A DNA stretch of 64,000 nt from Bradyrhizobium quebecense (lineage in GTDB: Bacteria > Pseudomonadota > Alphaproteobacteria > Rhizobiales > Xanthobacteraceae): the NCBI RefSeq assembly GCF_013373795.3, contig NZ_CP088022.1, forward strand, positions 3,596,001-3,660,000, read 5' to 3'. Below, piece after piece: positions 11,024 through 62,908 of the stretch. The notes under the pieces are model-generated. The model was not told where the DNA came from and did not search any database. It was given only the letters and a program-made list of their open reading frames with translations. Numbering within the stretch: the first letter of the stretch is position 1; the number at the start of each line of letters is the position of its first letter. The position numbers and the translations under genes were made by a program.

Positions 11024-11075
11024 CGGGGCAAGCCGCACGACGCAATACGTGCGGATCGAGAGCAGCGAATGCCCC

Positions 11076-37809: not shown

Positions 37810-38954
<1,145 letters not shown>

Positions 38955-39050: not shown

Positions 39051-40568
39051 ATGGAAGCCGAGGTTGGGATGCTGGTGGTGGAGACGATTGGTAAGATCCG
39101 TCGCGCCTACTTTGTTGATGGTCGTCCGATCAAGGCGATCTGCCGAGAACTTGGCGTATCGCGGAAGGTGGTTCGCAAGGTCATTCGTTCTCAAGCGACG
39201 GAGTTCCGGTACGAGCGCGAGACGCAGCCGCTCCCGAAGATGGGTGCCTGGAGTGCCGAGCTTGATCGGTTGCTGGCAGGGAATGAGAGCAAGGCGGCGC
39301 GGGAACGGCTGACGCTGATCCGGCTATTCGAGGAACTCCGCGGCCTGGGTTATGCCGGCGGCTATGATGCGGTTCGTCGATACGCCCGACGGTGGACCAA
39401 GGAACGCGGCACCTCGACAGCGTCGGCTTATGTGCCGCTGAGCTTTGCACCAGGCGAAGCCTACCAGTTCGACTGGAGCCACGAGGTGGTCCTGCTGAGC
39501 GGCACCACGGTGATGGTGAAGGCTGCTCATGTTCGGCTCTGTCACAGTCGCATGCTGTTCGTGCGGGCCTATCCGCGGGAGACGCAGGAGATGGTGTTCG
39601 ACGCCCACGACCGGGCATTCGCCCTGTTCAAAGGCACCTGCACCCGCGGCATCTACGACAACATGAAGACCGCGGTGGAGACGATCTTTGTCGGTAAAGG
39701 CCGTCTCTACAATCGCCGCTTCCTGCAGATGTGCAGCCACTATCTGGTCGATCCGGTCGCCTGTACGCCAGCGTCGGGCTGGGAGAAGGGGCAGGTCGAG
39801 AACCAGGTCGGGCTGGTCCGGGAGCGCTTCTTCACGCCGCGGCTGCGGTTCAAAAACCTCGACGAGTTAAACGCCTGGCTGCTCGACAAGTGCATCGCCT
39901 ACGCCAAGGCTCATCGCCATCCGGAGCTGGTCGATCAGACGATCTGGGACGTGTTCGAAGCCGAACGCCCCAAACTCGTTCCCTATGCCGGCCGCTTCGA
40001 CGGCTTCCATGCGGTGACAGCATCGGTCTCGAAGACCTGCCTGGTGCGCTTCGACAACAACAAGTACTCGGTCGCAGCCAGTGCAGTCGGACGACCGGTC
40101 GAGGTTCAAGCCTATGCCGATCGCATCGTGATCCGTCAGGATGGACGTATCGTTGCCGAGCACCCGCGATCCTTTGGCCGCGGCGATACCGTCTACGACC
40201 CCTGGCATTATGTGCCGGTGCTCGCCCGCAAACCCGGCGCCTTGCGCAACGGTGCTCCCTTCAAAGACTGGGTGCTGCCGGCCGCGATCGAGCGGATCCG
40301 GCGCAAGCTGGCCAGCACCGACGATGGCAATCGGCAGATGGTCGACATCCTCACCGCGGTGCTGACTGACGGTCTGTCCGCGGTGGAAGCGGCTTGTGCC
40401 GAAGCGCTCAGTCACAGCGTCCATTCCGCCGATGTCGTTCTCAATATCCTGGCCCGTCAACGTGAACCCGCCCCACCGGCCAACATCATGACGCCGGCCG
40501 CACTGACGCTCCGTCATGCACCGATCGCCGATTGTGCCCGCTACGACAACCTCCGGAGGACCATCTGA
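39051..40568 (+). CDS. istA: IS21-family transposase IstA
   Basis: 505 residues: N-terminal helix-turn-helix ([19 protein letters not shown]), rve-type DDE core ([39 protein letters not shown] with the catalytic Glu), and a C-terminal Mu-transposase-like beta-barrel ([26 protein letters not shown]). Its stop overlaps the istB ATG (TGATG). Intact. Confidence 0.95.
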
Positions 40569-41431
40569 TGGAACGAACCCAAATCTTCGACCTCATGGGC
40601 GAACTTAAGCTCTACGGCATGAAGGCTGCCTTCGACGAGATCATGGCAACTGCCGTCAAGCGCCAGCACGAGCCTCAACGCATTGTCGGCGACCTGCTCA
40701 ACGCCGAGATCAACGAGAAGCAAGCCAGGTCGATCAAATACCAGCTCACCATTGCCAAGCTGCCGCTCGCCAAGGACATCGCCGACTTCCAGTTCGACGG
40801 CACGCCGATCAATCAGACTCTCGTCAATGATCTCGCTGGCGGCGGCTTCATCGCCCAACAACGCAACGTCGTGCTGGTTGGCGGCACCGGTACAGGCAAA
40901 ACCCACCTGGCCATTGCCATCGCCAGAAGTTGCATCCGCGATGGCGCCAGAGGACGCTTCTACAACGTAGTCGACCTCGTCAACCGGCTCGAGACCGAGA
41001 CCCGCAACGGTCGGCAGGGACGGCTCGCCGAGCATCTGACCCGCATGGACTTCATCGTTCTCGACGAGCTGGGCTATCTGCCGTTCGCGCAATCCGGCGG
41101 TCAGCTCCTGTTCCATCTCATCAGCCGGCTCTACGAGCGCACCTCCATCATTGTCACCACCAATCTTGCGTTCGGCGAATGGCCCAGTGTGTTCGGTGAT
41201 GCCAAAATGACCACCGCGCTACTCGACCGATTGACCCATCACTGCGACATCGTCGAGACCGGCAACGACAGCTGGCGATTCAAAAGCCGCGACGATGTTC
41301 AAACAACCCGCGCTCGCGCCGTCTCCGCAACCCCGACCAGCTCCGACGACCCGAGCGCTACCAGCAGAGCACGCCGATCAAAGGGGTCCCTTTTGGATGC
41401 CGATAGGGGGTCCCAGTCGAACGCCGATTGA
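40568..41431 (+). CDS. istB: IS21-family helper ATPase IstB
   Basis: 287 residues, DnaC-like AAA+ ATPase with Walker [17 protein letters not shown] and Walker [13 protein letters not shown]. It selects target DNA and stimulates IstA. The end of the gene runs into the right terminal repeat, as is usual for IS21. Intact. Confidence 0.95.
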
Positions 41432-42009: not shown

Positions 42010-42328
42010 ATGCACGTGGAAACGGGAGACGTCGGATTGGCAAACAGTCCGGAGCAAAATGGAAGCGCGGGCACGTCGAACGCAGCCCAGAATACAAAAA
42101 TACCACACGCTGTCGACGGAGTAGTTTTCGAGGATAGCCAGCCTGGCCCAAAGACTCATGTTCTGATCGTCGGGGTGGGACACTATCCATGTTTCCGTAA
42201 CGGCGGCCCCGGATGCCATGAGAGCGCTCCACTTGGTCAACTGACCTCGTCGACCGTCTCGGCGCGCTTATTGGCACGATGGTTTCTTGAGGAGTATCGG
42301 TATCCGCCGGCACCTTTGGGCAGCCTAG
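42010..42328 (+). pseudogene. Caspase-like protease gene, 5' part (interrupted by IS1380)
   Basis: ATG at 42010 with CGGAG nine bases upstream. The 106 codons include a disordered N-terminus, then PKTHVLIVGVGHYPCF and LTSSTVSARLLARWFLEE, the first strand and helix of a caspase fold. The frame is broken at the target duplication CTAG (42325-42328). Beyond it the reading frame runs into the IS1380 end. Joined to 43954-44867 it gives one uninterrupted 410-codon frame (42010-42328 plus 43954-44867). Confidence 0.8.
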
Positions 42329-43949
42329 CCCGTCTTATTCATGATTGCCGGGCGGGGCAGCTGGAACATTTCCGGTCGGGGTGAAGGCGCGCGCGAACGC
42401 TTCGGCTTTTTCGCCGCTTTTCGACCCGACTTCGTGAACGCGTTGGAGGACGGCAGCGGGGTGACCGGGGGCTCATGCCCCGCGCGTCAGGGTGCTTGCG
42501 GGACCAGAGCGTTTACCAAGCCGCGGAACAGGTCGGCGTCGGGGCACGCCGCAGCGAAGGCGAGACGGACGCGGGTGGCGGTCTCGATGACGCGGGCTGC
42601 GATCTTGAGAAGCCTGAGCCTGATCGTGTTGAACTCGGCCGTTGCCAGATCGCGCGGCTTTGGGATGGCATCGCGCACGGCGAGGATGAGCCAATAGGCG
42701 GCGGTGTGGAAGACGAGGCGGACCTGGTTGGCGAGCGCCGAGCGGCAACTGGTGCGATCGGAGGCGAGCTGGGTCTTGTGCAGCTTGATCAGGTTCTCGG
42801 CCTGTCCGCGAGCGCAATAGAGGCTGTCATAGATCCACTCAGCCGAGCCGATATCCAGGCTGGTGACGACGTAGCGGACGTCGAGCCCTTGTTGGGTTGC
42901 CTCGATGCGGGCGACGACGCGGCGCTCACGATGCCAGGAGCCGGCCGCGTGGCAGGTCTCGGTGTAGCCGCGAACCACGATCTTGTTCTCGATCGCACGT
43001 TCGGTTCGAAATGCATCACAGACCTCGTCGACCTTTCTGGCGAGCGGCTTCGTGCCGGCTAGCGCGAAGATGTAATCGACGCCGTTTTGCTCGCAAAAAG
43101 TCATCGCCTCGGGGCCGGCGTAATGGCTGTCGCCGCGGAAGGTGATACGCGTATCGGGCCAGCGCCGGCGAATGCGCCGAACCAGGCGGCGCAGGTGTGC
43201 CCGCACCTCGCGGCCGCTCGGCGTCTTGCCGGGGCGCAGGATGACCGCAACAGGCCGGCTGTGCTCGGTGTCGTAGACGTGGATCGGCAGGAAGCAGTGT
43301 TCATCATAATGGGCGTTGAACAGCGAGAGTTGCTGACGGCCATGCACCACGTCGACCGTGTCGTCGATGTCGAGCGTGATTGCGCTCGGCGCTCGCGCGT
43401 AGCTGTCCATCCATAGGTCAACCAGCACAGAGCTCAGCCGGATCACCTCGCGCAGGTGTGGTGCATTCTCCAGGCGCGATAGGGTCGGCTGCGAACACAG
43501 ATCCCGGCCAGTGTCCGGCAGTCGGCCGCAAGCCAGCTTGAACGCCGGATCGCCGCGTAAACGATCGAGATCATTGCCATCCTCGTAGCCACACGCGATG
43601 GCGAAGATGCGGGCGCGGATCATATCCGCAAGGCTGTGCACGATGCGTCCCGGATCGCGCCGCTCGGGGAATACGCAGGACAACTTCGCGGCCAAGCCGA
43701 GGCGCCGGTCCGCCATGGCCAGAAGCATGACGCCGCCATCCGACGTCAGCTTGCCGCCGTCGAACGAGGCTGTGATCTTCTTGTGGGAAACGGCTGGAAA
43801 TGAGAACGGCAGACTCGTATCGTCGGTCATGGCGAGTGTGGCGGCCCGGATGCGCGGAGGGTGGGTGTCAGCAACCGAATCCTACGCCATCTCAGCGGCT
43901 TACGCCACGCTCGCCAGCCTCTCAACAAGCCGCTGATGAATAAGACGGG
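42329..43949 (-). mobile_element. IS1380-family insertion sequence
   Basis: 1621 bp bounded by perfect 14-bp inverted repeats CCCGTCTTATTCAT (42329-42342) and its complement (43936-43949), with the 4-bp target duplication CTAG at 42325-42328 and 43950-43953. It carries one intact transposase gene on the minus strand. Size and duplication length are typical for IS1380. It lies inside the caspase-like gene. Confidence 0.95.
42487..43830 (-). CDS. IS1380-family transposase
   Basis: 447 residues. N-terminal KITASFDGGKLTSDGGVMLLA is the IS1380 family hallmark; DDE region LDIDDTVDVVHGRQQLSLFNAHY, TFRGDSHYAG, and an acidic residue in RGQAENLIKLHK. Full length and uninterrupted, so the element may still be mobile. 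Confidence 0.95.
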   Translation of the reverse strand: MTDDTSLPFSFPAVSHKKITASFDGGKLTSDGGVMLLAMADRRLGLAAKLSCVFPERRDPGRIVHSLADMIRARIFAIACGYEDGNDLDRLRGDPAFKLACGRLPDTGRDLCSQPTLSRLENAPHLREVIRLSSVLVDLWMDSYARAPSAITLDIDDTVDVVHGRQQLSLFNAHYDEHCFLPIHVYDTEHSRPVAVILRPGKTPSGREVRAHLRRLVRRIRRRWPDTRITFRGDSHYAGPEAMTFCEQNGVDYIFALAGTKPLARKVDEVCDAFRTERAIENKIVVRGYTETCHAAGSWHRERRVVARIEATQQGLDVRYVVTSLDIGSAEWIYDSLYCARGQAENLIKLHKTQLASDRTSCRSALANQVRLVFHTAAYWLILAVRDAIPKPRDLATAEFNTIRLRLLKIAARVIETATRVRLAFAAACPDADLFRGLVNALVPQAP

Positions 43950-43953
43950 CTAG

Positions 43954-44867
43954 CAATATTATCCGCCGAGCCAACGGATGTGCCGTTCGACACGAGGTCC
44001 GGTAGTTGGCTTCCACCAATGTCGAACTACGACGTTTTCGCACGTGCAGCCCAGGCTTGGTATAGCCGTGGCAACAGCGATGAAGCGAACCGGCTAGTAT
44101 TCCTGTTTTGTGGTCATGGCTTTGGATACGGCGTACTGACGTCGTTGCTAATGTCCGACTTCGACTTCCGTAAGCAAGATGCCTGGGACAATGCACTCGA
44201 CCTCGGCAAGTTCGTGGCCGGCATGGAGAATTGCGCGGCAGCCGAGCAGATCTTCTTCATCGACGCATGCCGGCGACCACATGGAGATCTCCTTCCGCCG
44301 GGTGCTGCGATCGGACGCTCGCCGGTCCATGCTAAGTCAACACCGCGCAAGGACTTCTCCACCAATCGCAATGCGCCGCTGATCTTCTCGACCGGCGATG
44401 ACAAGCCAGCCCGTGGCCGCAGCGACGGCGCGAGCGTCTTCACTGACGCCTTTATGAAGTCTGTACGCGGCATGGGCGCACGTGATGATAACGGGGATTG
44501 GCGCATCAATAATTACTCGCTCCTCGAAGCCATGTCGCACGTTTCGCTCCGCCTTACCCAGCAGCATTTTCCGGAGCCACAACAGCCGCAGGGCGGCCAG
44601 ACGCGCGCTTTTGACTTTCATTATTTGGCGGCGGACCCTATATCGCCGATTTATCTCGATCGTAGCGGCCAGGCGTGCGGCCCCGGGGAGCTCCACTACG
44701 AAGTAGGCGGCCGAGCGATGGCCCGCCCCTGCGGCAACGACGAGTACGAAATTGAGCTTAGCCTCCCCTATGGCGGCTACACGTTTACTCTCAAGAACGG
44801 CGCCACCAACCTTGCGCACGCTCAGCAACGGTCCGCCCCCACCTTCAAGAAGGCGAGGCTTGAATAA
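43954..44867 (+). pseudogene. Caspase-like protease gene, 3' part with the His-Cys dyad
   Basis: Continues the caspase fold after the IS. Key sites in the restored 410-residue numbering: His161 in LVFLFCGHGFGYG and Cys212 in IFFIDACRRPH, the canonical peptidase C14 dyad. The stretch after residue 230 (NAPLIFSTGDDKPARGRSDGASVFTDAFMKS) is the usual caspase follow-on; a beta-rich tail of about 90 residues ends the protein. From the GTG at 43980 the fragment could be translated alone (295 residues), but it would lack the first strand. The TAA overlaps the next ATG (TAATG). Confidence 0.85.
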
Positions 44868-46351
44868 TGGTGCAGAAAGCCGCCATATTGGTTCGTGTCG
44901 ACAAGTACATCGATGGTGATCAGGTTCGCTTTGGGGTGCCGGTCCGCTTTCGTCCCGTCATCGACGATGCTAACAAGCACACTCGCCGCTCCGACCGCTC
45001 TCGCAAGTTGGTGACCACGATCGCGCCCGTGTCATCTTACGAATATGACGGCGTTCGCGTTTCTCTCGCCTTCGGCGCGTATGATGTCGAGGCGGTACTG
45101 CCATCAGGAGAGCCGCTGCTCAAGGAGCTCTTGGTCGGGCCAGAGGCTGAAGAATATGGCGACGCCGGCATGCCGGTTATCCTTCGGGGCGAGGCTTCAC
45201 CGAACGAATGGCGCAGCTGGGCGCATTTTTCCGGCGCAACGCTCGCGTCGGCACACCAGCAATCTGGCGAACTGCTGCGAGGTCCCTCTTACCCCACCAC
45301 ATCGTTCAGCGTGACGATCGGCAGCATTGCCGGGTCGAGCGACTTTGACGGATTTGACCCATCGAGCTGGACCGGCTGGTTCCATTACCTTGAGGAACGG
45401 TATCGCCGCGGCCCCGAGCACGCACTAGACATTCAACTTGCAGGGAGCGATGACGGGCTAAGCGTGACGACCGAGGGCGGGTACAATGGAACGCCGCTCC
45501 GGATCATGTTCACGCGGCAGGCTTCTGCGAGTTTCGACTTCCACACTACCGAGATCGGCGCGCGACGCACCTACGCTGCCATCGCCGGCAAGGCCGGCAC
45601 CCAATTGTTTGCCCTCCCCCTGCCGTGGGGTGACAGCTACTACTCCACACCATTTGAGATGCTGGCGTTCGAGGATGACCGACAGCTGCGTTGCGACCCG
45701 GTCCTAAGAGACGAGCGATGGGCGGGGCTCGTTGCCTATCTGAACAGGGGGCGCGTCGACCTCGCCTACGAAATTTTGAAAAGTGCCCAAGACGCCCTAT
45801 TCGAGAAATTCGAGAACCCGCTTGCCGCAGCGATCGGCGGGTACGTCCTCCTTTCGTCGCTGCAAGAAGGTGATCACGCGAATGATTGGCCGGAGTGGCT
45901 GGACAATCTTGCGCGCCGATTCCCACGGCTCCCCGATGGGCCGATTCTTCGGGCGAAGTGGCTATTGTCCCAGAATGTCGAAGAGCATCTCTACGAAGCT
46001 CATGAGCTTCTTTACGATTCGGTCATGCGAGGTCTTCCCTTCTTTACGACCGGTGTTGTCTGGTTGATCGAGGGTCTGGAGCAGACATCGATCGGCTGCC
46101 CGACTTGCACCGAACTCCTACGCAAGGTGCGAGGCGTGGCCAGATCCATGGATCTGAGCCAGGCCTTCACATCCTTCTCTATCGCCAAACCGCTGACTCG
46201 CGATGTCGAGGAAACGAAACCCGAACTCGATGCTCCAGCCGGCAATCTCGTGGAACCGGGGGCTCAAGGAGCATTGGGGCGGTTGGAGCAAAGCCAAACG
46301 CAACAATCTAGTCTGCCGCAACTCCAATATTTGACCCTGACGCAAAGCTGA
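44867..46351 (+). CDS. Unrecognised 494-residue protein of the caspase/E1 cluster
   Basis: I recognise no known domain. Residues 1-80 look like a beta-sandwich (AILVRVDKYIDGDQVRFGVPVRFRPV; GVRVSLAFGAYDVEAVLPSGE). Residues 150-290 contain more beta-type sequence with a PLRIMFTRQ..TQLFALPLPWG region. Residues 300-430 are helical and repeat-like (LVAYLNRGRVDLAYEILKSAQDALFEK; AAAIGGYVLLSSLQEGD; LYEAHELLYDSVMRGL), reminiscent of TPR-type scaffolds, with a C-x2-C (IGCPTCTELL). The tail is low complexity. Start and stop both overlap neighbours by one base, so it must belong to the same complex or pathway. Cytosolic. Confidence 0.8.
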   Translation: MVQKAAILVRVDKYIDGDQVRFGVPVRFRPVIDDANKHTRRSDRSRKLVTTIAPVSSYEYDGVRVSLAFGAYDVEAVLPSGEPLLKELLVGPEAEEYGDAGMPVILRGEASPNEWRSWAHFSGATLASAHQQSGELLRGPSYPTTSFSVTIGSIAGSSDFDGFDPSSWTGWFHYLEERYRRGPEHALDIQLAGSDDGLSVTTEGGYNGTPLRIMFTRQASASFDFHTTEIGARRTYAAIAGKAGTQLFALPLPWGDSYYSTPFEMLAFEDDRQLRCDPVLRDERWAGLVAYLNRGRVDLAYEILKSAQDALFEKFENPLAAAIGGYVLLSSLQEGDHANDWPEWLDNLARRFPRLPDGPILRAKWLLSQNVEEHLYEAHELLYDSVMRGLPFFTTGVVWLIEGLEQTSIGCPTCTELLRKVRGVARSMDLSQAFTSFSIAKPLTRDVEETKPELDAPAGNLVEPGAQGALGRLEQSQTQQSSLPQLQYLTLTQS

Positions 46352-47421
46352 TGTTCAGGCTAGAAATGCTACCCGCGCGGGAGGGGGACTGTCTGATCCT
46401 CAGCTGGGGTGAAGCCGATAGCCCTTATCGCCTGCTCATAGACGCCGGACGCGAGTCGACCTCCGAGGCGGTGCTTGCATACGTCGAAGAACATGGGGGC
46501 GCGAAGGACATGTTCGAGCTATTCATCGTGACCCATATCGATCGCGACCATATCGAAGGCGCGGTAGCCCTCCTGAGGTCGGAGCGCTTCCGGCCCCTCG
46601 TCAAGCAGATCTGGTTTAATGACCGCGGCGACCTTGATTACGCTCCGCCGGAACCGGGCTTCGAGACGTACGGCGCGCTCGACGGAGAACGTCTAGCCGC
46701 ACTCATCGCCGAGCACCAGATCGCCAATAATCTCGATTTCAGGCCAGCGCCGGTCGCAGTGCGGCAAGAGGAGCTGCCTGTTGTCGAACTTCCGGGCGGC
46801 CTGACCCTGACCGTCTTGTCGCCCGATCAGCAGCAATTGGCCGATCTCGCTAAGCCGTGGGAGGACACTCTGCGAGAGGCTCCGCCGGGCTGGGAAGAGT
46901 ACGGCGAGACCGAGCCAATCGACGTCGCCTTCCTCGCTAGTCGGCCATTCAAAAGCGACAAGGCGAAGCCCAACGGCTCGAGTATTGCGGTGGTCGCCGC
47001 CTACAAGAAGCGTACGATCTTGCTGACCGGCGATGCTCACGTTGGCCGGCTGCTGGCATCGCTCGCGCTCTACAAGGAAATGCATCCCGAACACGAGGGG
47101 TTCGCCTTGGTAAAGGCCTCGCACCACGGAAGCCGCGGCAATATCTCGAACGAATTGGTGGCAGCGGCCCAATGCAGTTGCTGGGCGATCTCTACAAATG
47201 GAGCTCAGTACAAGCATCCTGATCGCGAGGCCATCGCCCGGATCATCGCCGGCTCACCCGACATAGTGAAACTGTTCTTCAACTATGACACCCCGTTCAC
47301 CGCATGGTGGCGTAGACCCAACGTCGGAGCCTATGCCTTTACGTCGTCCTACGGCGACGGCGGCTATCTCGCGATCGATATTCCCGAGACCGCCCCTGCC
47401 GTTGCAATTTCAACTCGATAA
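46351..47421 (+). CDS. ComEC-like metallo-beta-lactamase-fold protein (first copy)
   Basis: 356 residues, MBL fold of the ComEC/Rec2 nuclease-like group. Metal ligands: H62-x-D64-x-D66-H67 in IVTHIDRDHIEGA, D228 in ILLTGDAH, H258-H259 in VKASHHGSRG. N-terminal LEMLPAREGDCLILSW is typical. There is no membrane segment, so it is a soluble enzyme, probably a nuclease or phosphodiesterase. The start overlaps the previous stop (TGATG). Stand-alone MBL proteins of this group occur in bacterial conflict systems; the exact substrate is unknown. Confidence 0.88.
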   Translation: MFRLEMLPAREGDCLILSWGEADSPYRLLIDAGRESTSEAVLAYVEEHGGAKDMFELFIVTHIDRDHIEGAVALLRSERFRPLVKQIWFNDRGDLDYAPPEPGFETYGALDGERLAALIAEHQIANNLDFRPAPVAVRQEELPVVELPGGLTLTVLSPDQQQLADLAKPWEDTLREAPPGWEEYGETEPIDVAFLASRPFKSDKAKPNGSSIAVVAAYKKRTILLTGDAHVGRLLASLALYKEMHPEHEGFALVKASHHGSRGNISNELVAAAQCSCWAISTNGAQYKHPDREAIARIIAGSPDIVKLFFNYDTPFTAWWRRPNVGAYAFTSSYGDGGYLAIDIPETAPAVAISTR

Positions 47422-47788
47422 CGTAAGCCGCAACAGACCGACATTGGCTAGAAAGCGGGCCATCATTAGCGATGTAGTCGCTTGCGCATTCGGTGGCGGG
47501 CATCCGTAACAACCGACCTCGGGTAAAGGCGTCTCGATCAGTTGACCGTCGGAACATGCACCGCCGTCAGGCCACCGCTGGCGATCGAGGGCCCGAAGCT
47601 GGAAACCCACCGAATCTTCAAGTTCAACCCTAGATTCTGGCGCTTCCGGCTCCACTCGCTTGGCTTGCAGACCCGAATCAACATACTATTTCCGGCTAGC
47701 TTGCAGCATGGTCATTCAGGAAATGCCCTTTTGCGCGGCCGTTTTACTTAAAGGCATGGTGTAAGGCCTGACCGGCCGAGGAGGCGCG
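47422..47788. other. 367-bp gap inside the caspase/E1 cluster
   Basis: No open frame of note. TTGGCT (47660-47665) and TACTAT (47684-47689) at 18-bp spacing could be a promoter for the second half of the cluster (MBL2, E2-E1-JAB, patatin). A strong GAGGAGG site precedes the ATG at 47789. Two transcripts are therefore possible. Confidence 0.4.
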
Positions 47789-48949
47789 ATGTTCGCAGAT
47801 GTAAAGGGACCGTCTTTTATTTTCTGGCCTGTCGGCTGCGGCGATAGCACGACCATCGTCGTCGGCGAAACTGAACTCATGCAGATTGATCTGAACGACA
47901 AAGTGATGGCTGAGGAGGACGATAACGAGCACATTCCGCTGGTTGATGAACTCGTGGCCAAGCTGCCGCAGCGCGATGGCAAGCCCTACCTGTCCTGCTT
48001 TGTCCTGACACATCCTGACCAGGATCATTGCCGCGGCTTCGAGGATCTTCTCAAGCGAGTTGTGATCGGCGAGCTCTGGCACAGCCCGCATATCTTCCGG
48101 GAGTACGAGGACGAAAAGGTCCTGTGCAAGGATGCCGAGGTGTTTCGCGAGGAGGCGCGTCGCCGGGCAACGAAGACCATCAAGGCCGGAGGTGATCCCG
48201 GCGCCGGCAATCGCGTTCGGGTTATCGGCTACAGCTCGCTGTTTCAACCCGGCGAACGCTATCATAACCTTCCCGAGGAGTTCCGCACCCGCCCGGGTGC
48301 GGAGATCACCATTCTCGACGGTGCAGACGTCAGCGACCGCTTTCATGCCTTCATCCACGGGCCTTTCAAGGAGGGTGAAGCTGACGCTCGCAACGAGACC
48401 AGCGTGGCCATGCGGGTGATCATCGGCAACCAAGATCATCCGATGTACGGACTCTTCCTCGGCGATGTCTCCTACCCGACCCTGATGCAGATCTTCGAGC
48501 AGACGCACGCTCACAACAATGACGCCATGCTAAACTGGAACGTGCTTCTTGCCCCGCATCACTGCTCGAAGAAGGTCATGTATGAAGACAATGTTCTTCA
48601 GCAAGACGCCCTCGACGAGCTGCAGGCGCCGCAGCTCGATATCGGTTATATCGTCGCGAGCTCGCCGGAATTCCCGGCATCGAATTCGTCTGGCGACAAT
48701 CCGCCCCACGTCAAGGCGAGGAACCGTTATGAGGAAATCGTCAACACGGCGTTCCTCTGCACCGGCGAATACAGCACGCCCGAGAACCTCCGGCCGATCA
48801 TCTTCAGCGTCAACGAAGACGGCGTCTTCCTCGACGGTGACGACTACGAGGTCTCCGATAGCGCGCGCAAGACGTTGGCCGCCGCAGTCGAGGCGGCCCG
48901 CGGACGTGCGGCACCTCCAACCGCCAAAGTTGGTTTCGGCCACGAATGA
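47789..48949 (+). CDS. ComEC-like metallo-beta-lactamase-fold protein (second copy)
   Basis: 386 residues, MBL fold. Ligands H75-x-D77-x-D79-H80 (VLTHPDQDHCRGF), D226 (GLFLGDVSY), H257-H258 (LLAPHHCSKK). It shares the group but little obvious sequence with the first MBL protein, and has an insertion around residues 95-175 after the first metal motif. The N-terminus FIFWPVGCGDSTTIVVGE is characteristic of MBL proteins that accompany E1/E2/JAB genes. The E2-E1-JAB gene overlaps its end by 4 bp, so they are translated together. Confidence 0.9.
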   Translation: MFADVKGPSFIFWPVGCGDSTTIVVGETELMQIDLNDKVMAEEDDNEHIPLVDELVAKLPQRDGKPYLSCFVLTHPDQDHCRGFEDLLKRVVIGELWHSPHIFREYEDEKVLCKDAEVFREEARRRATKTIKAGGDPGAGNRVRVIGYSSLFQPGERYHNLPEEFRTRPGAEITILDGADVSDRFHAFIHGPFKEGEADARNETSVAMRVIIGNQDHPMYGLFLGDVSYPTLMQIFEQTHAHNNDAMLNWNVLLAPHHCSKKVMYEDNVLQQDALDELQAPQLDIGYIVASSPEFPASNSSGDNPPHVKARNRYEEIVNTAFLCTGEYSTPENLRPIIFSVNEDGVFLDGDDYEVSDSARKTLAAAVEAARGRAAPPTAKVGFGHE

Positions 48950-51189
48950 AATCCGACGGGCAGGCCTGGGCGCTCGCACAACTTGCCGAAATCGTCCAAG
49001 CTTCCTCCGGTTCGCTCGAGGTCATAGACACCGTCGAGCCGACCGAAGATGGCGAAGCCGTAGTCGTTTCTCTTTCGGTGGACTGCTCCGGATACCCGCG
49101 TAAGCCAGGCGGGATTCCTTTCAGGACACGGGAGCGACTGCTTCTCAAGATTCCGGCTAATTTCCCTCTAGAGGTGCCGCGGCTTGACTTCGCGCACAAG
49201 CGCTACGGCGACTTCTCGCACGTACAATGGGGCAGCTACATCTGCCTTTATCAAGCGACCGACAGCGAATGGCAGCCGGAAGACGGCCTCTTCGGCTACA
49301 TGCAGCGCATCGACGACTGGCTTCGAGCCGCTGCCGCAGATGAACTCGATCCGGCAGGAATGCCGCTGCACCCGCCCGTCACCTACGCGGTCAGCAGCCT
49401 GAAAATTGTCCCAACGCAGAATACGCCGGTCGTCGAACCGCCATTCTGGGCAGGATACGCGAAGATCATACGCGAGAACGAGAACCGTATAGAACTCGGC
49501 GAATGGATTGAAAGCCAGGGTACCATCCCCGATGGTCGCCTGGCCGCCGCTGTGCTCCTTCCGACCGGGATGCCGCACGAGTATCCCAAGTCAGTCTCGG
49601 AACTTCTCGAAGAGTTGAAGGCCCGAGATCTCCCCATCAAGGTCATTCGGCTGATGATCCAGTTAGGCGTGCTCAGAGGTGAAAGCGGTCAGCCGCTCAT
49701 CTTCATACTGGGCGCCGCGATGCGCGGGATTGCCGGGGGCCCACGTCTTCAGCACTTGGCTGCTTGGCGCATTGATGCGCAGCGCGTCGATGAAATGCGC
49801 GAAGCAATCAGGGCTTCTACCAGCGACGATCCCAGTGACGTCACCGAATTCTATGAATGGGCTGCGAAGGCCACAATCGAATGGTGCAGCATCCTTGAGG
49901 ATCGACCGGAAATCGTCACCAGACGAGACGCCGAGAGTGCTTCAGCCTGGTGGGCGGGCCGCCATGTCGTCCTCCTCGGTTGTGGAGCTATCGGCAGCGC
50001 GGTCGCCATGCTGCTCGCCCGCGCGGGCGTGGCCAAGCTGCAGCTCTACGACAAGGACGTGGTCAAGCCGGGTGTTCTGGTCAGGCAGCTCTTCGACCGG
50101 TATCAGATTGGCGCCAACAAGGCGAAGGCAACCGCCCAGAACATCCGATATACCAATTATGGGGTCGAAGCGCTCTCGTCGCCCGCAGATATCGTGAGAT
50201 TGCTTGAAGTCCCGGAGCGCCGCGCGGACATCCTGGCCGCTGACGTGATCATCAACGCAACCGCTTCGACAATGGTCGCGACTTCGCTGGAGAAGCAGTT
50301 CAGGACCTGGCCAAAGGCCCATCCGCCTATCGTCTCAATGGCCCTGGGGCACAAGGCGGATCAGGGTTTGATGACGATGGCTGTGCAAGGGGTTCCTGGA
50401 ATAACGCTGGACCTCGACCGTCGCGCCAAGATAGCGCTGTCGAATCTTGAAAAGGGAAAGCACGTCCTCGACGAGTTCTGGCCGGTAAGCCCGGACAGGA
50501 CGCGCCTGTTTCAGCCCGAGCCCGGCTGTTCCAGCCCGACATTCCGGGGCTCCGCTGCCGACGTGATGGCGCTTTCGGCATTGATGACGAACGTCGCGAG
50601 CAGATGGTTGGCAAGTCCCTCGCTTGTTGCTGCGCGCGCCCGCTCGTTTGATCTGACCGGACAGCGCACAGGTGCCCTCAACGAGTTCGAGTTCGAGTGG
50701 CCCACCGATATTGTTCTCGTCGATGGCCGGAACGGTTACCAGATCCGTGTGACGCAGGCCGCTCTTGCAGGAATGCGGGCATGGATGCGCAGGTCAGAGC
50801 GGGTTAACGGCCGACGCGTCGAGACAGGTGGCATCCTGTTTGGTCACGCGGATGAGTTCCTGAAAATCCTTTGGGTCGATGAGATCAGCGGGCCACCGCC
50901 TGATAGCCTTCAATCTCCGACGGCATTCGTCTGCGGCACCGCGGGCGTTTCTGAAATGAACACCGAAAAGACCAGGAGGACGAGGAAATCCGTTGCCTTT
51001 GTCGGTATGTGGCACACGCACCCTGGAGGAATTCCGCTGCCCAGCAACACCGACTACGGCGCGATGGCGAATCTCCTGACGAGCAAGGAATTCCAGGCCA
51101 AGCGTTTCTTGATGATCATTATTGGGGCTGATTCATCACGCCCCCTCATTACGGGGACGGTCTTTGAGCGAGCCGATTACCAACAGTAG
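48946..51189 (+). CDS. E2-E1-JAB triple fusion (ubiquitin-like conjugation and deconjugation enzyme)
   Basis: 747 residues with three enzymes of a ubiquitin-like cycle in one chain. Residues 1-150: E2-like fold with catalytic Cys100 (WGSYICLYQATDSEW) preceded by a Pro-rich strand pair. Residues 150-330: linker domain of unknown fold. Residues 335-580: ThiF/E1 adenylation domain with GCGAIGS at 345-351, YDKDVVKPG, and the candidate thioester Cys528 in PGCSSPTFRGS. Residues 595-745: JAB/JAMM isopeptidase with E627, H690-x-H692-P, S700, D703, all canonical. In type II CBASS the same activities are split between Cap2 (E1-E2) and Cap3 (JAB). It overlaps the MBL gene and, in its last bases, the patatin gene. 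Confidence 0.95.
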   Translation: MKSDGQAWALAQLAEIVQASSGSLEVIDTVEPTEDGEAVVVSLSVDCSGYPRKPGGIPFRTRERLLLKIPANFPLEVPRLDFAHKRYGDFSHVQWGSYICLYQATDSEWQPEDGLFGYMQRIDDWLRAAAADELDPAGMPLHPPVTYAVSSLKIVPTQNTPVVEPPFWAGYAKIIRENENRIELGEWIESQGTIPDGRLAAAVLLPTGMPHEYPKSVSELLEELKARDLPIKVIRLMIQLGVLRGESGQPLIFILGAAMRGIAGGPRLQHLAAWRIDAQRVDEMREAIRASTSDDPSDVTEFYEWAAKATIEWCSILEDRPEIVTRRDAESASAWWAGRHVVLLGCGAIGSAVAMLLARAGVAKLQLYDKDVVKPGVLVRQLFDRYQIGANKAKATAQNIRYTNYGVEALSSPADIVRLLEVPERRADILAADVIINATASTMVATSLEKQFRTWPKAHPPIVSMALGHKADQGLMTMAVQGVPGITLDLDRRAKIALSNLEKGKHVLDEFWPVSPDRTRLFQPEPGCSSPTFRGSAADVMALSALMTNVASRWLASPSLVAARARSFDLTGQRTGALNEFEFEWPTDIVLVDGRNGYQIRVTQAALAGMRAWMRRSERVNGRRVETGGILFGHADEFLKILWVDEISGPPPDSLQSPTAFVCGTAGVSEMNTEKTRRTRKSVAFVGMWHTHPGGIPLPSNTDYGAMANLLTSKEFQAKRFLMIIIGADSSRPLITGTVFERADYQQ

Positions 51190-52366
51190 TCCGCTGCCGA
51201 AGCAGCCGTTTATCGGACTCGCCATGTCCGGCGGCGGCGCACGGGCGATGGCGTTCCATCTCGGCTGTTTGCGGGCGCTCCATGACAGAGGCCTGTTGGA
51301 AAAGGTGAAGGTCCTGTCCACCGTTTCGGGAGGCAGCGTCATCGGCGCATGTTACGCCTACAGCTCGGATGACTTCGTTTCGTTCGACCGAAAACTCGTC
51401 GAGCTGCTCCGGAATGGCATCCAGCGGATGATCTTGAAAGAGCTGCTGACCAGCACACAATGGGTGAAGATCCTTCTCACACTGATCTTAAGTGGACTGC
51501 CCACAGCTGTCCTTTGGTCCCTTTCGTCAATCCTCGCTGCCTGTCGACTCCTCACCGGACTCCCGACACGACGCATCGAGCGCGCGCTTGCGGTGTTTCG
51601 ACAGTCGCTGCTGGTTTGGGCTAGCCTCACGACAGCGTTCGAGCAGGCCCTGACCAGCCTCTTTCGATCGAAGACTGTCTGTGATGTCACGCGTCCGGAT
51701 TTGCAAGTGGTCATAAACGCCTGTGACCTGAAGACCGGAACCGCATTCCGTTTTGGCTCGCAACGGTCGGGAGGTTGGCGTTACGGGAAAATCGTTGGAC
51801 CGGCCCCAACCGTTGCGAAGGCCGTGGCGGCATCGGCCGCCTTCCCCATCATCCTGCCGCCGCTTATCGAAACTTTCCAGTTCAGCAAAGGCGGCAGCAC
51901 TCGAACCCAGACAGTCGTCTTGACCGACGGCGGCGTGTTCGACAATCTGGGAGTGTCCGTCCTGGAGCCCGGAAGAGACGGCGATATCACCGACACATAC
52001 CCGGTGACGCATATTATCAGTCTCAACGCCGGACCAGGCCAGCTCAACGGTGGCGATCATCCCTTCTGGTGGATCAGCCGCGTCGCAAAGGCCTTCGAAG
52101 CGGTGCACCGCAAATCGCAAGACCACGTCTACTCCAGACTACATCGTCATGTAGAAGCAGGCGACTTGGACGGCTTCGGGATGGTCTACCTCGGCCAACA
52201 GGATCACCAGCTTCCGTGCCATCCCCCCGACCTTGTAACGCGCGACAAAGTTCGCGACTATCCAACAGATTTCGCGCCCGTCTCCGCAAAAGACCTTACG
52301 CTGTTGACCAGCCGAGGTGAACAGCTCACGCACATTATCATCGATCGATATCTACCGCAGTTGTAG
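51164..52366 (+). CDS. Patatin-like phospholipase
   Basis: 400 residues from a TTG at 51164 with GGGGA six bases upstream; a TTG at 51122 is an alternative. Oxyanion loop AMSGGGARAMAFHLG (21-34), nucleophile Ser55 in STVSGGSVIG, catalytic Asp255 in LTDGGVFDNLG. Residues about 100-132 form a strongly hydrophobic hairpin that may insert into membrane. Patatin phospholipases are common membrane-damaging effectors of CBASS and related systems. It overlaps the E2-E1-JAB gene by 26 bp, so it is translated from the same message. Confidence 0.9.
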   Translation: MSEPITNSSPLPKQPFIGLAMSGGGARAMAFHLGCLRALHDRGLLEKVKVLSTVSGGSVIGACYAYSSDDFVSFDRKLVELLRNGIQRMILKELLTSTQWVKILLTLILSGLPTAVLWSLSSILAACRLLTGLPTRRIERALAVFRQSLLVWASLTTAFEQALTSLFRSKTVCDVTRPDLQVVINACDLKTGTAFRFGSQRSGGWRYGKIVGPAPTVAKAVAASAAFPIILPPLIETFQFSKGGSTRTQTVVLTDGGVFDNLGVSVLEPGRDGDITDTYPVTHIISLNAGPGQLNGGDHPFWWISRVAKAFEAVHRKSQDHVYSRLHRHVEAGDLDGFGMVYLGQQDHQLPCHPPDLVTRDKVRDYPTDFAPVSAKDLTLLTSRGEQLTHIIIDRYLPQL

Positions 52367-52649: not shown

Positions 52650-52883
52650 TCAATCGTCCTTCAGAAGCCGCCATGGCTCAACTCCAAGCCCTACCGCAAT
52701 TCGGGCGATATTATCGATGGACACGTTCCGCTCTGAACGCTCGACTCCGCTGAGATAGGTTCGGTTAATGCCGCATTCATAGGCAAGCGCCTCCTGGCTA
52801 AGCCCACGCGCGGCCCGCAGGCGTCGCATGTTCTTTGCCAAAACGTCTCGCAGCGGTCCTTTGTGTGTCAGCTTCACCAACAC
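52650..52883 (-). CDS. XRE-family helix-turn-helix regulator (77 aa)
   Basis: Almost entirely a Cro/CI-type HTH (LAKNMRRLRAARGLSQEALAYECGINRTYLSGVERSERNVSIDNIARIAVGLGV). Probably a DNA-binding repressor. It converges on the patatin gene (283 bp apart, nothing seen in between) and diverges from the gene at 52965. It may regulate the nearby cluster or the island; small XRE proteins of this type are common on rhizobial islands. Confidence 0.85.
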   Translation of the reverse strand: MLVKLTHKGPLRDVLAKNMRRLRAARGLSQEALAYECGINRTYLSGVERSERNVSIDNIARIAVGLGVEPWRLLKDD

Positions 52884-52964
52884 ACATCCTGCGTATTGAC
52901 GCCTTTAAGGCGACCGCTTTTAAGTTACATAAAGAGGGAGACCGAAGAATTTGGAGCTACCGTC

Positions 52965-53378
52965 ATGGGTAACTACGAGGCAATCATCTTAGAGCCGTTC
53001 CTGGAATCCTGCGGCCATTCTCCCGGAAGCTTGGGAGCGATAGGCTATCTAGCCGGCTACAGGTGTAGAGAAACTGGAGCTGTCATATGCTCGATTAATC
53101 TGCCCACTGAGCTAGTGGAAGCTGTTGTCATGGGCAGCGTGATCACATCCGCTGTCGTAACTCCGAGCGGCCAAGTCGAATCCTCGTTCGAATTCGTGAG
53201 GACCAAGTCTCCGGTCCAGGTTCTTACGTCTGAGCCGATCGATGCTCTAGTGAGGCGTGCGCTTGCCCGAGATAGCCTTCGGCTTGAAGGCGCCACGAAG
53301 CATGAACTGGAGCAGTTGCACGATCGACTCGGACGTTCGCTGCACCTAGTCGCCGAGTGCCTTCAGGTGTTTCGCTAG
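52965..53378 (+). CDS. Hypothetical protein (137 aa)
   Basis: ATG at 52965 (MGNYEAIILEPFLESCGHSPGSLGAIGYLAGYRCRETGAV). No recognised domain; the C-terminal third is helical (DALVRRALARDSLRLEGATKHELEQLHDRLGRSLHLVAECL). The frame is open further upstream (to 52863), but that part overlaps the divergent XRE gene. Base composition is lower in GC than the trb operon. Function unknown. Confidence 0.55.
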   Translation: MGNYEAIILEPFLESCGHSPGSLGAIGYLAGYRCRETGAVICSINLPTELVEAVVMGSVITSAVVTPSGQVESSFEFVRTKSPVQVLTSEPIDALVRRALARDSLRLEGATKHELEQLHDRLGRSLHLVAECLQVFR

Positions 53379-53431
53379 GTCGATTCGTGACATCCCGTCG
53401 AGCGATCATTTCAATCATCGGAAAGGGGACA

Positions 53432-53686
53432 CTAGCTCGAAGTAGAGTCATCCCCATCCGTAAACATTTGGTCGCGATTGCTTGATCTCTGCTTTGCTCT
53501 CCTAAAAGCAACATCGCCGTCAATAAATGCCTCGAGCATGAACGGTATCAGCTCAGCCACTTCCTCCTTGTTGCCGTAGGTCTCTGCATAGAACGCAGCA
53601 TACTCGCGCAGTCTCTGCGCCAGGCCTGGCGTAAACACAACGTTCACTTTCACCGGCGTCCGATCAGGCAGCTTCGCAAGCTTCAT
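53432..53686 (-). CDS. DUF2274 protein at the end of the trb operon
   Basis: 84 residues, KLAKLPDRTPVKVNVVFTPGLAQRLREYAAFYAETYGN..EVAELIPFMLEAFIDGDVAFRRAK, the DUF2274 pattern. This family almost always sits directly after trbI in Trb-type conjugation operons, as here (3 bp gap). It resembles a small ribbon-helix-helix-type or accessory protein. Exact role unknown. Confidence 0.8.
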   Translation of the reverse strand: MKLAKLPDRTPVKVNVVFTPGLAQRLREYAAFYAETYGNKEEVAELIPFMLEAFIDGDVAFRRAKQRSSNRDQMFTDGDDSTSS

Positions 53687-53689
53687 CCC

Positions 53690-54964
53690 TTACCTGCCCT
53701 TCGCCATTGCCTGAACGTCCTGGTACGGCTTCAGCACCAGATCCTTCGAAACAATCACCCGCAGCGGCCAACCCGGCCGCACCGTGATCGTCGGCTGCAC
53801 GTCGAGCTCGCGTTCCACCAGGCGCTGGCCGGCACGATTGGTCGTTTGCTGCGTGCTCTCCCGCAACGCCTTCACGAGATCGCTCTCGTCGTTACCGATC
53901 GATAGCTGTGTCCCCACCCCGATCAGGGTCGCCAGAGCGACACCTTTGAGTAACTGCCAGGTATGGAAGTCCACCTCGTCCTCGAGGCCGGCGTAGCCCG
54001 CAACGTCGGTGGCCGGGAGGTTCTCGATCACGATCGAATTGCCGTTCGGCAGGATAAGCCGGCTCCAGACGACCAACGCCCGCTTCTGGCCAAAAGCGAC
54101 GACACTGTCGTATTTTCCTATAATCCGAGTCCCTTGCGGGATCAGGAGGTGCTCGCCCGTCACCGTGTCATAGACGTTCTCGGTGACTTGGCCGATGGTG
54201 GTGCCTGGCAAGTCCGAATTCAGCCCCGTGACGAGACTCGCCGGGATGATCGACCCCGCCATCAGGGCATAGGTCGACGGCGCCGGCTTGAGCGCGTGTT
54301 GATTGGTGGTTTCCGTGTCGGCTTTCGCGTCCACAAAGGCCAGCTTTCGCGCCTGCGACGAGGGAATGATTTCGCTGGAGCGGTCGATCATCGCCTGCGC
54401 CGTCTTTGCGAGCTCCGCAGCTGATGGGCCTGTATCGGGCGTTGAAGGCCGGAATTCGGATGGAGCGGCAGTTGGGGCCTCCGTCGTACTCGCCTGCTTG
54501 CGCTTGTCCTGCTTCTCCGACAGGCGGACGAACAAGCCCGACTCCTTTGCCTGTTGAGCGACCCGCGTCTGGCGGATCCGCTCAGCCCGTTCGGCGTCTT
54601 CCTCCGGATTGGTTCGGAAGCCAGCGTCCGGAGCGACGCCAGCCTTCTTCTCATTTTCGGCAAAGGCCCTGCCAATGTCCCCTGGCGACGGCGGTCCAAG
54701 CCGCGGCGTCGCTGGCGGCAGGTCTTCATAGGACTTTGGCAGCTTGCTCAGGCCTTCGGCCGTCTGCTTGCGGTCGGTATTGTACAGCTCCGTTCGCTCA
54801 GACTGCTTGAAGGAGCTCGGCTTGAGCGCAATAAGTATCGCTCCGCCCACGAACAGCGCCGCGACCGCGCAGCCGATCATAAGGGCGCGCTTGTTGAGGC
54901 GCCGAACGGGTCGCGGCCGCGCCCGCAGCTCCAGCGGCTCGGGACCCGGATCCAAGCTCGTCAT
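53690..54964 (-). CDS. trbI: Conjugal transfer protein TrbI (VirB10 family)
   Basis: 424 residues. A short cytosolic N-terminus (LNKRALMIGC..), one transmembrane helix near residues 26-46, a charged periplasmic linker, and the C-terminal VirB10 barrel (AGSIIPASLVTGLNSDLPG, TIGQVTENVYDTVTGEHLLIPQGTRIIGKYDS, FGQKRALVVWSRLILPNG). It spans inner and outer membranes in the type IV secretion core complex. The ATG overlaps the trbG stop (ATGA). Confidence 0.95.
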   Translation of the reverse strand: MTSLDPGPEPLELRARPRPVRRLNKRALMIGCAVAALFVGGAILIALKPSSFKQSERTELYNTDRKQTAEGLSKLPKSYEDLPPATPRLGPPSPGDIGRAFAENEKKAGVAPDAGFRTNPEEDAERAERIRQTRVAQQAKESGLFVRLSEKQDKRKQASTTEAPTAAPSEFRPSTPDTGPSAAELAKTAQAMIDRSSEIIPSSQARKLAFVDAKADTETTNQHALKPAPSTYALMAGSIIPASLVTGLNSDLPGTTIGQVTENVYDTVTGEHLLIPQGTRIIGKYDSVVAFGQKRALVVWSRLILPNGNSIVIENLPATDVAGYAGLEDEVDFHTWQLLKGVALATLIGVGTQLSIGNDESDLVKALRESTQQTTNRAGQRLVERELDVQPTITVRPGWPLRVIVSKDLVLKPYQDVQAMAKGR

Positions 54965-55986
54965 GATGCGCTCCCGGCGCTGAAGATCTGCGAGACCGGC
55001 CGAGCGTCGATACGGATGATCCGGACGATGCGCTGCGGATCTTCGCCAAGCCGAAGCTCGGCAGCACCGAACATCCGATCGACGATGTAGTAGGAACCGC
55101 GGACCCGGTAGTTGACGAGGTTCGGCCGGCCATCGGCGCCGGCGACGAACAAAGGCGGCGCTTCGCCTTGCGACAGGCCGGACGGCATCTGGATATAGAC
55201 CTTGCGGCCGTCGTCGAAGGCGCGCACCGGCCGCCAAGGCGGATCGTCGCCCTCGATGCGATAGCGGAAATTAAGACTGTCGAGCCGCACCCCGCGATCG
55301 GCGATCCGCTCTTCGTTCTGCTGTACGGCGGCATTCTGCTTATGAAGAGCGACGAGCGTATCGGTCGGATACGTCCATGAGATGGACGCCATGTAGGTCT
55401 GCTTGGTCGAGACGAGCTCGAGGTGATAGGCCCGCCGGTCCGTCAGCACCACGAGGTTAGTCTGAATGTCCGGAAGCGTCGGCTTGACCAGGATATGCAC
55501 CCGGCGGCCGCTCCCCTGCCCGCTTGAGGTATCGCCGACCACCCAGCGAACCGTATCGCCTGTGGAGACGTCGATCAGTTCCTCGCCCGGCTGAAGCGCG
55601 ATGGTCGAGACCTTCTCTGGGCTTGCATAGAGCCGGTAGAGCGCACCTTCCGTCCAGGGGTAGACCTGGATGGCGTTGATATAACCGGCGCGCGTCGGCT
55701 CCATCCTTGCCGCCTTGTTCGCCTTCGCGATCGCCTGCTCCGGCGGCAGCTTTTCTTCCTTGCCTCCCTTTGTCGGAAATGGCTTCAACTGGCCCGGCAA
55801 CGGCAGGACCTTGGGCGTTTCGACGACTTGCACCGGCGCTGGCGGATCGCTCTCTGGCAGCGCCTTCTCAAATGTCATCTCATCATAGGGCGCTTCGAGA
55901 TTGAGCTTGGTGGCGCATCCCGCAAGCCCAACCGACAAGGCAAGTACGCTGGCCGACCCGAGCTTGGTGAGGGCTTTGGAATTCAT
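54961..55986 (-). CDS. trbG: Conjugal transfer lipoprotein TrbG (VirB9 family)
   Basis: 341 residues with a lipoprotein signal, LAGC lipobox (Cys24). The N-terminal VirB9 domain has VQVYPWTEGALYRLYASPEKVSTIALQPGEEL; the C-terminal domain has PPWRPVRAFDDGRKVYIQMP, LVNYRVRGSYYIVDRMF. Part of the outer-membrane core of the secretion channel with TrbI and TrbF. Overlaps both neighbours by 4 bp. Confidence 0.95.
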   Translation of the reverse strand: MNSKALTKLGSASVLALSVGLAGCATKLNLEAPYDEMTFEKALPESDPPAPVQVVETPKVLPLPGQLKPFPTKGGKEEKLPPEQAIAKANKAARMEPTRAGYINAIQVYPWTEGALYRLYASPEKVSTIALQPGEELIDVSTGDTVRWVVGDTSSGQGSGRRVHILVKPTLPDIQTNLVVLTDRRAYHLELVSTKQTYMASISWTYPTDTLVALHKQNAAVQQNEERIADRGVRLDSLNFRYRIEGDDPPWRPVRAFDDGRKVYIQMPSGLSQGEAPPLFVAGADGRPNLVNYRVRGSYYIVDRMFGAAELRLGEDPQRIVRIIRIDARPVSQIFSAGSAS

Positions 55987-56687: not shown

Positions 56688-56690
56688 ATC

Positions 56691-57854: not shown

Positions 57855-57865
57855 GGCGCCTTCAC

Positions 57866-58618: not shown

Positions 58619-58645
58619 GGAAAACTCCAGGGATTGAGGTTGAGG

Positions 58646-58827
58646 TCAGGCCTTATGGGCCTGTTCAAAGGTGCTGATGAGATTGGCGGCCCAGCTCAGA
58701 CCACGTTCGGCGAGGTAGCGCTCAGCGAAATGGTGAGGCCCGGTGCGGGCGAGGACGGCGTCAATGGCGCGCTGATCGTCTGATGAGGAGGCTCCGACGA
58801 GCGCGAGCGCGACCGGTCCAAGGCCTA
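58646..58827 (-). pseudogene. trbE: trbE, displaced 3' end
   Basis: Encodes the final 59 residues of TrbE (GLGPVALALVGASSSDDQRA...GLSWAANL) and its stop codon. It is separated from the rest of the gene by the IS630 element. From 58825 downwards the frame continues exactly from codon CTA at 59886-59884 once the IS and one TA are removed. Confidence 0.88.
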
Positions 58828-58918
58828 GAGCATTTTCTGACCTGGCGGAATCGGAAGGGATTCCCTTGTGAGGCAAATCGTGATTCACCCTGAGGGCTGG
58901 TGATGGAGGCCAGCCCCC

Positions 58919-59870: not shown

Positions 59871-59883
59871 TCAGAATCTGCTC

Positions 59884-62890: not shown

Positions 62891-62908
62891 ATAGCAGTCT
62901 CCTTCAGG

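Follow-up and report, generated by a model that had tools for sequence, protein, structure and literature searches.

Between positions 42010 and 52366 of a 64,000-nucleotide stretch of Bradyrhizobium quebecense DNA (the window), six genes on one strand encode a caspase-fold protease, a 494-residue protein (p494), two metallo-β-lactamase (MBL) proteins (MBL1 and MBL2), an enzyme joining E2, E1 and JAB domains in a single chain, and a patatin phospholipase. Do these genes form one defence system or more than one, and what would an MBL be doing beside ubiquitin-type enzymes? An earlier note on this DNA had proposed a single six-gene conflict system. We are fairly confident that the run from caspase to patatin is instead two independent defence modules that adjoin each other on a conjugative island: Module A, of the Canu type, and Module B, a 6A-MBL operon in which the conjugated protein is most likely MBL2 itself.

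Two modules at one locus

The six genes are present as open reading frames (ORFs) on the strand the earlier note had given, and both MBL proteins are ComEC-like, as it had held. The modules (Table 1) are separated by a gap of 367 bp between MBL1 and MBL2. Using the window's E2-E1-JAB as query we found 17 other loci on genome contigs, and in 15 of them the enzyme is accompanied by both MBL2 and a patatin. By contrast, the flanks of these 17 loci (up to 10 kb, some contigs being shorter) gave no match to the caspase, p494 or MBL1 at E ≤ 1e-3. The p494 query was likewise negative in all 17 genomes. By the tool's own warning an empty search answer shows nothing by itself; here the same query matched 5 of 249 genomes, including the window's own, which serves as a control. 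None of the other loci examined carries the six genes together, and the proposal of one six-gene system falls.

The borders of the modules can also be seen in the DNA. For the four closest loci, those printed, homology is confined to 47602-52366, with one of them (L006) adding parts of 52671-57744. It begins 187, 166, 29 and 10 bp upstream of MBL2 in L006, L007, L008 and L009 (window positions 47602, 47623, 47760 and 47779), and stops at the patatin stop codon in L006 and L007 and 7 and 15 bp short of it in L008 and L009. The 6A cassette therefore moves on its own. The three closest E2-E1-JAB loci are from Bradyrhizobium, with 82-94% identity in the best segment. On the other side, the order caspase, CanB, MBL was found in five of six plasmid loci opened, where the annotated features include no E1-type gene.

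A glycine tail on MBL2 and a predicted conjugation pathway

MBL2 lies directly upstream of E2-E1-JAB, overlapping it by 4 bp, and ends in ...PPTAKVGFGHE. Among the best 120 of 1815 MBL2 homologues, the window's own included, 118 carry VGFG and one AGFG, followed by 0-4 residues (exactly two in 97); the sole untailed entry is a truncated protein of 284 residues. At least one residue follows the Gly in 118 of the 119 tailed patatin-clade homologues among the matches listed. Across the homologues listed, column entropy is 0.07 bits for the Val and 0 for each position of G-F-G, rising to 3.0 bits for the residue after the Gly. G384 is invariant in 59 aligned MBLs, ten of them from a sister clade, as are H75, D77, D79, H80, D226 and H257, which we take from the fold family to be the likely metal ligands. 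The fold of MBL2 is closest to the ComEC β-lactamase-like domain (9ic4). Sister-clade MBLs end differently: among the best 120 of 3383 homologues, 119 end in HG and one in HGS, and at the seven sister-clade loci the MBL ends exactly on Gly in four (two HG, two RAG) and in HG plus 2, 3 or 6 residues in three. One sister-clade MBL (P0269) ends ...LAHGSQPLAHG, its Gly tail doubled in tandem.

An FG end is found in 16 of 16 MBL2 proteins, in none of 15 patatins (two end in G) and in none of 18 E2-E1-JABs; it is absent from the six printed CanC tails, and 9 of 44 p494 proteins end in G. As background we took the C-termini of 198 mechanically called ORFs of at least 150 residues from the 17 loci, four of which have FG within the last eight residues. 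The AlphaFold2 model of MBL2 (mean pLDDT 84.5) falls below 50 at residues 375-386 and so leaves them disordered, which makes a structural cause of the conservation unlikely. Over 22 loci the V-G-F-G codons differ by synonymous changes (19 loci use TTC for Phe), and the next mechanically called start follows the tail at 2 or 5 nt in 20 loci and at −1 and 10 in the others; a translation signal is therefore ruled out as the cause. The tail is conserved at the protein level and is common to MBL2 and a CD-NTase (below). This disordered, near-invariant VGFG with 0-4 variable residues is a new observation here.

The 747-residue E2-E1-JAB has C100, C528, E626, H690, H692, S700 and D703 invariant in 14 aligned sequences, window included. 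By family, C100 is presumably the E2 cysteine, C528 that of E1, and E626/H690/H692/D703 the JAB residues; the claim that all catalytic residues are present thus gains their invariance, the roles themselves being assigned from the families. The best solved-structure match by sequence is Cap2. According to an excerpt of Jenson 2023 (PMC10097602), Cap2 of type II CBASS (cyclic oligonucleotide-based anti-phage signalling system) attaches the CD-NTase to lysines through its C-terminal Gly/Ala, and Cap3 takes it off again; in the same excerpt the conserved Gly/Ala end goes with operons having full-length Cap2 and Cap3 and is absent from the other operon types compared.

By analogy with these CBASS enzymes, our best reading is that MBL2 itself plays the part of ubiquitin: JAB would process it, E1 activate it and E2 conjugate it by way of Gly384. 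MBL2 would fill the position of the CD-NTase. The JAB domain would trim the residues beyond Gly384 (HE here), the E1 domain (C528) would activate Gly384, and the E2 domain (C100) would pass MBL2 to a lysine of a target, a step that JAB could reverse. We propose that conjugation readies or positions MBL2, and that infection then brings the patatin, or a multi-transmembrane protein in the sister clade, to attack the membrane; without a cyclase, the patatin might be switched on by an MBL-made signal or by conjugation to the patatin itself. We infer MBL2 processing, conjugation and target, the signal to the patatin and an anti-phage effect. The suggestion in the earlier note that conjugation acts as the switch is supported by the sequence evidence and can be sharpened, the conjugated protein being most likely MBL2.

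We compared 32 loci: the window, the 17 genome-contig loci, four of seven plasmid hits, one viral contig and nine from genome searches, weaker E1-E2 hits (L058-L066) being excluded. Viral contigs gave one relative of E2-E1-JAB and none of p494, and phage records gave no E2-E1-JAB relative at E 1e-20. In 30 of the 32 loci an MBL gene lies 5' of E2-E1-JAB; the two exceptions are L016 (Frankia), where a CD-NTase takes this position, and L021, with an NB-ARC/STAND NTPase. The L016 partner is a CD-NTase by PADLOC (5e-74, SMODS), with a TIR-SAVED gene upstream, and its C-terminus is RGADDPPAAPVTFGAL, a VTFG-AL tail. Against four chosen MBL2 tails it scores 42-54, compared with 34 for the best of the 198 background C-termini, and 0, 0, 0 and 1 of 2000 shuffles reach its score. 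In a tree of 29 of the 32 loci the L016 enzyme groups within the patatin clade (100/100, with inner forks at 88/86 and 87/85), and the other clade (100/100) consists of the seven sister-clade loci; a long-branch warning names L055, L075 and L079. In eight of eight distant E1-E2 relatives with a matched neighbouring CD-NTase (L058-L062, L064-L066) that CD-NTase ends in GRAG. On balance we lean towards E2-E1-JAB being a sensor-neutral conjugation module: the immune enzyme encoded upstream (MBL, CD-NTase, perhaps a STAND NTPase) would become the 'ubiquitin' by way of a short C-terminal Gly tail, an MBL-fold hydrolase being conjugated as modifier, and a patatin or transmembrane protein would kill.

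Three loci deserve mention in their own right. L016:7057-12412 (TIR-SAVED, CD-NTase, one-chain E2-E1-JAB) is a CBASS-like operon that bridges CBASS and 6A-MBL. At L021:7473-12397 the NB-ARC/STAND NTPase that precedes E2-E1-JAB ends in VTVFGNRAAS. At L019:4934-14390 a CBASS type II-like operon (CapV-like patatin, CD-NTase ending QGFG, E1-E2) stands immediately upstream of a 6A-MBL operon.

The patatin gene of the window overlaps E2-E1-JAB by 26 bp and carries the GGGAR, SGGS and DGG motifs, in agreement with the earlier identification. Its start is likely TTG 51164 rather than the ORF-heading TTG 51122, because four relatives start at the equivalent codon. All 23 loci whose MBL has a [VI]GFG-type tail have a patatin (19 downstream, two fused, plus L018 and L037); the loci came mostly from searches with the enzyme of the patatin clade itself and are not independent, L035 and L057 sharing the same tail. 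The L018 patatin is cut by the contig end; that of L019 is 28% identical, with a second MBL gene between; and that of L034 (Rhizobium leguminosarum plasmid) lies in two overlapping ORFs (10240-11428) and is probably a broken gene. No patatin match was found in the seven sister-clade loci, nor in L016 or L021. At each of the seven core sister-clade loci we picked by eye a neighbouring protein that has 2-4 hydrophobic segments; five of these form two BLAST groups, with L054 (a 15-residue match only) and L078 outside them. The two clades carry different effector candidates, and the patatin is likely the effector of Module B. Several sister-clade operons also have a second MBL-type gene nearby (L075:7802-8866, L076:8600-9580, L077:8568-9467).

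Several observations weigh against a conjugated MBL2 and an exchangeable partner. The Gly/Ala of type II CBASS stands at the very end of the chain, whereas MBL2-type tails carry 0-4 residues beyond the Gly (six in L056), so that processing must be assumed; the sister clade likewise has 2-6 residues after HG at three of seven loci and RAG in place of HG at two others. The tail counts cover the best 120 of each homologue list, with more distant MBL homologues lying outside them. The L016 E2-E1-JAB is 31% identical to the window's and at 294 bits falls below the 6A cut-off of 320; the L021 STAND tail match is weak, 14 to 388 of 2000 shuffles reaching its score; and neither locus has a patatin. 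Patatins are not exclusive to Module B, a patatin-like gene standing beside three caspase loci (L028, L067 and L068), and a signal linking an MBL to a patatin is not known.

Four other explanations have to be considered. Module B adjoins trb conjugation genes and has relatives on plasmids; it might be directed at plasmids or other mobile elements instead of phages, or be an inactive passenger of the island. However, its reading frames are intact and its catalytic residues conserved, and NCBIfam names 6A-MBL anti-phage, a label that comes solely from that name. We consider this explanation improbable; it is in any case compatible with the conjugation mechanism.

The MBL2 tail might instead be a docking or cleavage site, with JAB or E1 binding or trimming MBL2 to switch enzyme activity and no isopeptide conjugate being made. 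The residues that nearly always follow the Gly in the patatin clade would suit such a site, as would the MBL nucleases of Canu, AVAST and Hachiman, which an excerpt of PMC12799240 describes as switched on by proteolysis. Yet the invariance of E2 C100 and E1 C528 suggests a selected thioester or conjugation reaction, 119 of the best 120 sister-clade MBLs and four of seven at sister-clade loci end exactly on Gly, and the very similar tail of L016 is on a CD-NTase, a protein conjugated in CBASS (PMC10097602, excerpt). A docking or cleavage site is thus an unlikely account of the tail.

Thirdly, the modifier could be a ubiquitin-like protein encoded elsewhere, as in Bil and Bub, with MBL2 as its target or effector. 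E2-E1-JAB enzymes often act on ubiquitin-like proteins, and our comparison covered ORFs of at least 70 residues. But no other family of such ORFs occurs in more than three of the 17 loci, which disposes of a hidden gene of that size recurring beside E2-E1-JAB, and the Pfam scan of the window genes gave no ubiquitin-like β-grasp match, small ORFs not having been searched exhaustively. Moreover, the conserved Gly tail is on MBL2, and Cap2, the best solved-structure match, conjugates a CD-NTase that has no β-grasp fold (PMC10097602, excerpt). We find this explanation very doubtful. Finally, one composite conflict system, for which the common strand, the close spacing inside each half, the MBL in both and the patatin-like neighbour of some caspase loci could speak, is most improbable and was rejected on the flanks of the 17 loci, the absence of p494 there, the 367-bp gap and the cassette-sized DNA homology.

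Module A and its surroundings

The caspase gene of Module A, canA, is split by an insertion sequence (IS) element, presumably of the IS1380 family, with inverted ends of 18 nt each at 42325-42342 and 43936-43953. Elsewhere in the genome 1531 bp of the element recur at full length four times; each copy is printed as 100% identical, with a slightly lower score for one of them. Because the element splits canA, Module A is probably dead in this strain. The C-terminal piece matches Peptidase_C14 and has FCGHG and IDACR motifs, which bears out the earlier reading of a caspase-fold protease, although the gene is split.

The 494-residue protein had no match in the Pfam scan of the window genes. All 44 relatives listed, among them the window's protein itself or an entry nearly identical to it, carry PF27295, and two are caspase fusions. 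Its structure model has a beta-rich first half followed by a TPR-like stretch; Foldseek matches to TPR proteins are weak (best E 0.014). Eight plasmid records with relatives were found and six opened: in all six a caspase gene lies immediately 5' of the p494 relative, and in five an MBL gene (by BLAST) immediately 3', the sixth being a trypsin-p494 fusion. The His motif fits all six plasmid caspases and the Cys-motif pattern four, and MBL1 matches the MBLs of the five loci at 4e-45 to 2e-59. Two genomes (L067 and L068), of another family of the same order, have a caspase-p494 fusion followed by an MBL; a third (L069) has caspase and p494 matches and no CanC match. An excerpt of Tuck et al. 2025 (PMC12799240) reports that CanA-CanB turns on the MBL pro-nuclease CanC; by analogy, the caspase and CanB of Module A would activate its MBL, and MBL1 is predicted to be a protease-activated pro-nuclease.

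Some of these caspase loci have further neighbours. At L031:4057-10704, on a Bradyrhizobium barranii plasmid, a caspase gene lies beside one for a 1788-residue trypsin-like protein with a p494 (CanB) domain, and an adjacent MBL is not annotated. At L067:5574-10256 and L068:3421-8103 a patatin-like gene is directly upstream of the caspase-p494 fusion and CanC-like MBL, and in L028 a patatin adjoins the caspase.

The mobile island setting described earlier is borne out by trb-type conjugation genes (TrbI, CagE/TrbE/VirB, T2SSE ATPase) at 53690-63994 on the minus strand. This downstream trb region is partly common, at 87% DNA identity, to L006 from Bradyrhizobium archetypum, where different cargo lies upstream of the 6A cassette. 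Upstream of canA, by eye from the translations, a two-gene transposase unit resembling IS21 istA/istB (39051-41431) separates it from a truncated-looking efflux gene (37810-38412).

Table 1. Features of the two modules in the window (positions in nucleotides of the window).
Feature	Position	Strand	Basis
Module A	42010-47421	+	caspase / 494-residue protein / MBL1
canA (caspase), N-terminal piece	42010..42324	+	ORF; runs to left IS end; BLAST to six plasmid caspases, 3e-14 to 0.009
IS1380-like insertion inside canA	42325..43953	.	18-nt terminal inverted repeats; four other full-length genome copies
Transposase of IS1380-like element	42487-43830	-	inside canA
canA (caspase), C-terminal piece, listed ORF	43980..44867	+	Pfam PF00656, 3.9e-6; His FCGHG, Cys DACR motifs
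canB-like 494-residue protein	44867..46351	+	beta-rich first half; TPR-like helical part at about 286-425
canC-like MBL (MBL1)	46351..47421	+	PADLOC LmuA 6e-63; Avs1a 182.5 bits; BLAST to plasmid-locus MBLs
Module B	47602-52366	+	MBL2 / E2-E1-JAB / patatin
Conserved leader/promoter region of 6A cassette	47602..47788	+	DNA homology starts (L006 47602, L007 47623); alignment
MBL2 (6A-MBL enzyme)	47789..48949	+	NCBIfam NF058524, 288 bits, cut-off 220
MBL2 C-terminal tail KVGFG-HE, coding part	48926..48946	+	Gly384, predicted conjugation residue
E2-E1-JAB single chain (6A-MBL cap2_3)	48946..51189	+	NCBIfam NF058523, 428 bits, cut-off 320
Patatin phospholipase, predicted effector	51164..52366	+	Pfam PF01734, 4.8e-16

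Relation to known systems

The full set of six genes had been described as unlike any characterised system; each half, however, matches a described system. Module A resembles Canu (CanABC; PMC12799240, excerpt) in having a caspase, a protein of unknown kind and an MBL in the same order. It differs in that its caspase is not intact, and the likeness to the K. aerogenes Canu is one of gene order and protein kinds. For MBL1, AVAST type 1 was ruled out, since the match to Avs1a (NF041809) at 182.5 bits is below the cut-off of 420. Lamassu is not favoured either: the LmuA model matches MBL1 (6e-63), but the SMC protein LmuB was not seen among the eight proteins scanned.

Module B corresponds to 6A-MBL (NCBIfam NF058523, cap2_3, and NF058524, the MBL enzyme), operon type 6a of Iyer et al. 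2006 (PMC1779556, excerpt), in which an MBL gene is followed by a one-chain E2-E1-JAB. Row 6a of that work notes the MBL beside ubiquitin-type enzymes, as the earlier note had stated. Both proteins pass the 6A-MBL cut-offs, and the window's clade is divergent within the group, at 428 and 288 bits against 602 and 445 for L054. Where the window's clade has a patatin and a VGFG tail with further residues, the sister clade has a neighbouring protein of 2-4 hydrophobic segments and mostly an HG tail. Our literature search found no paper that explains 6A-MBL or assigns a role to its MBL, although there may be a published account of MBL conjugation; excerpts of PMC11153139, PMC10952713 and PMC11354881 hold nothing on such MBL operons.

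Bil and Bub also use conjugation by bacterial E1, E2 and JAB proteins in defence. For Bil this is described in PMC11354881 (excerpt). They employ β-grasp ubiquitin-like proteins, none of which was seen in the window genes scanned.

The closest comparison is with type II CBASS (CD-NTase, Cap2, Cap3 and an effector such as CapV), and the relation to its enzymes and the defence or conflict nature of the locus were judged rightly from the start. No CD-NTase was found in the window, as had been noted: PADLOC gave no cyclase among the eight proteins scanned, and tblastn of two CD-NTases over the window gave nothing at E 1e-3. Module B shares with type II CBASS the E1, E2 and JAB domains with conserved catalytic residues, a phospholipase among the effectors, and a partner enzyme in which a Gly at the C-terminus or close to it is conserved (in MBL2 the invariant Gly384, with residues beyond). 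It differs in having an MBL-fold enzyme for the CD-NTase, E2, E1 and JAB in one chain, and 0-4 residues after the Gly. If our reading is correct, the tail gives the MBL of 6a operons a role, the choice of effector (patatin or transmembrane protein) tracks the clade, and ubiquitin-like conjugation extends from the β-grasp proteins and the cyclases of CBASS to a third, unrelated enzyme fold.

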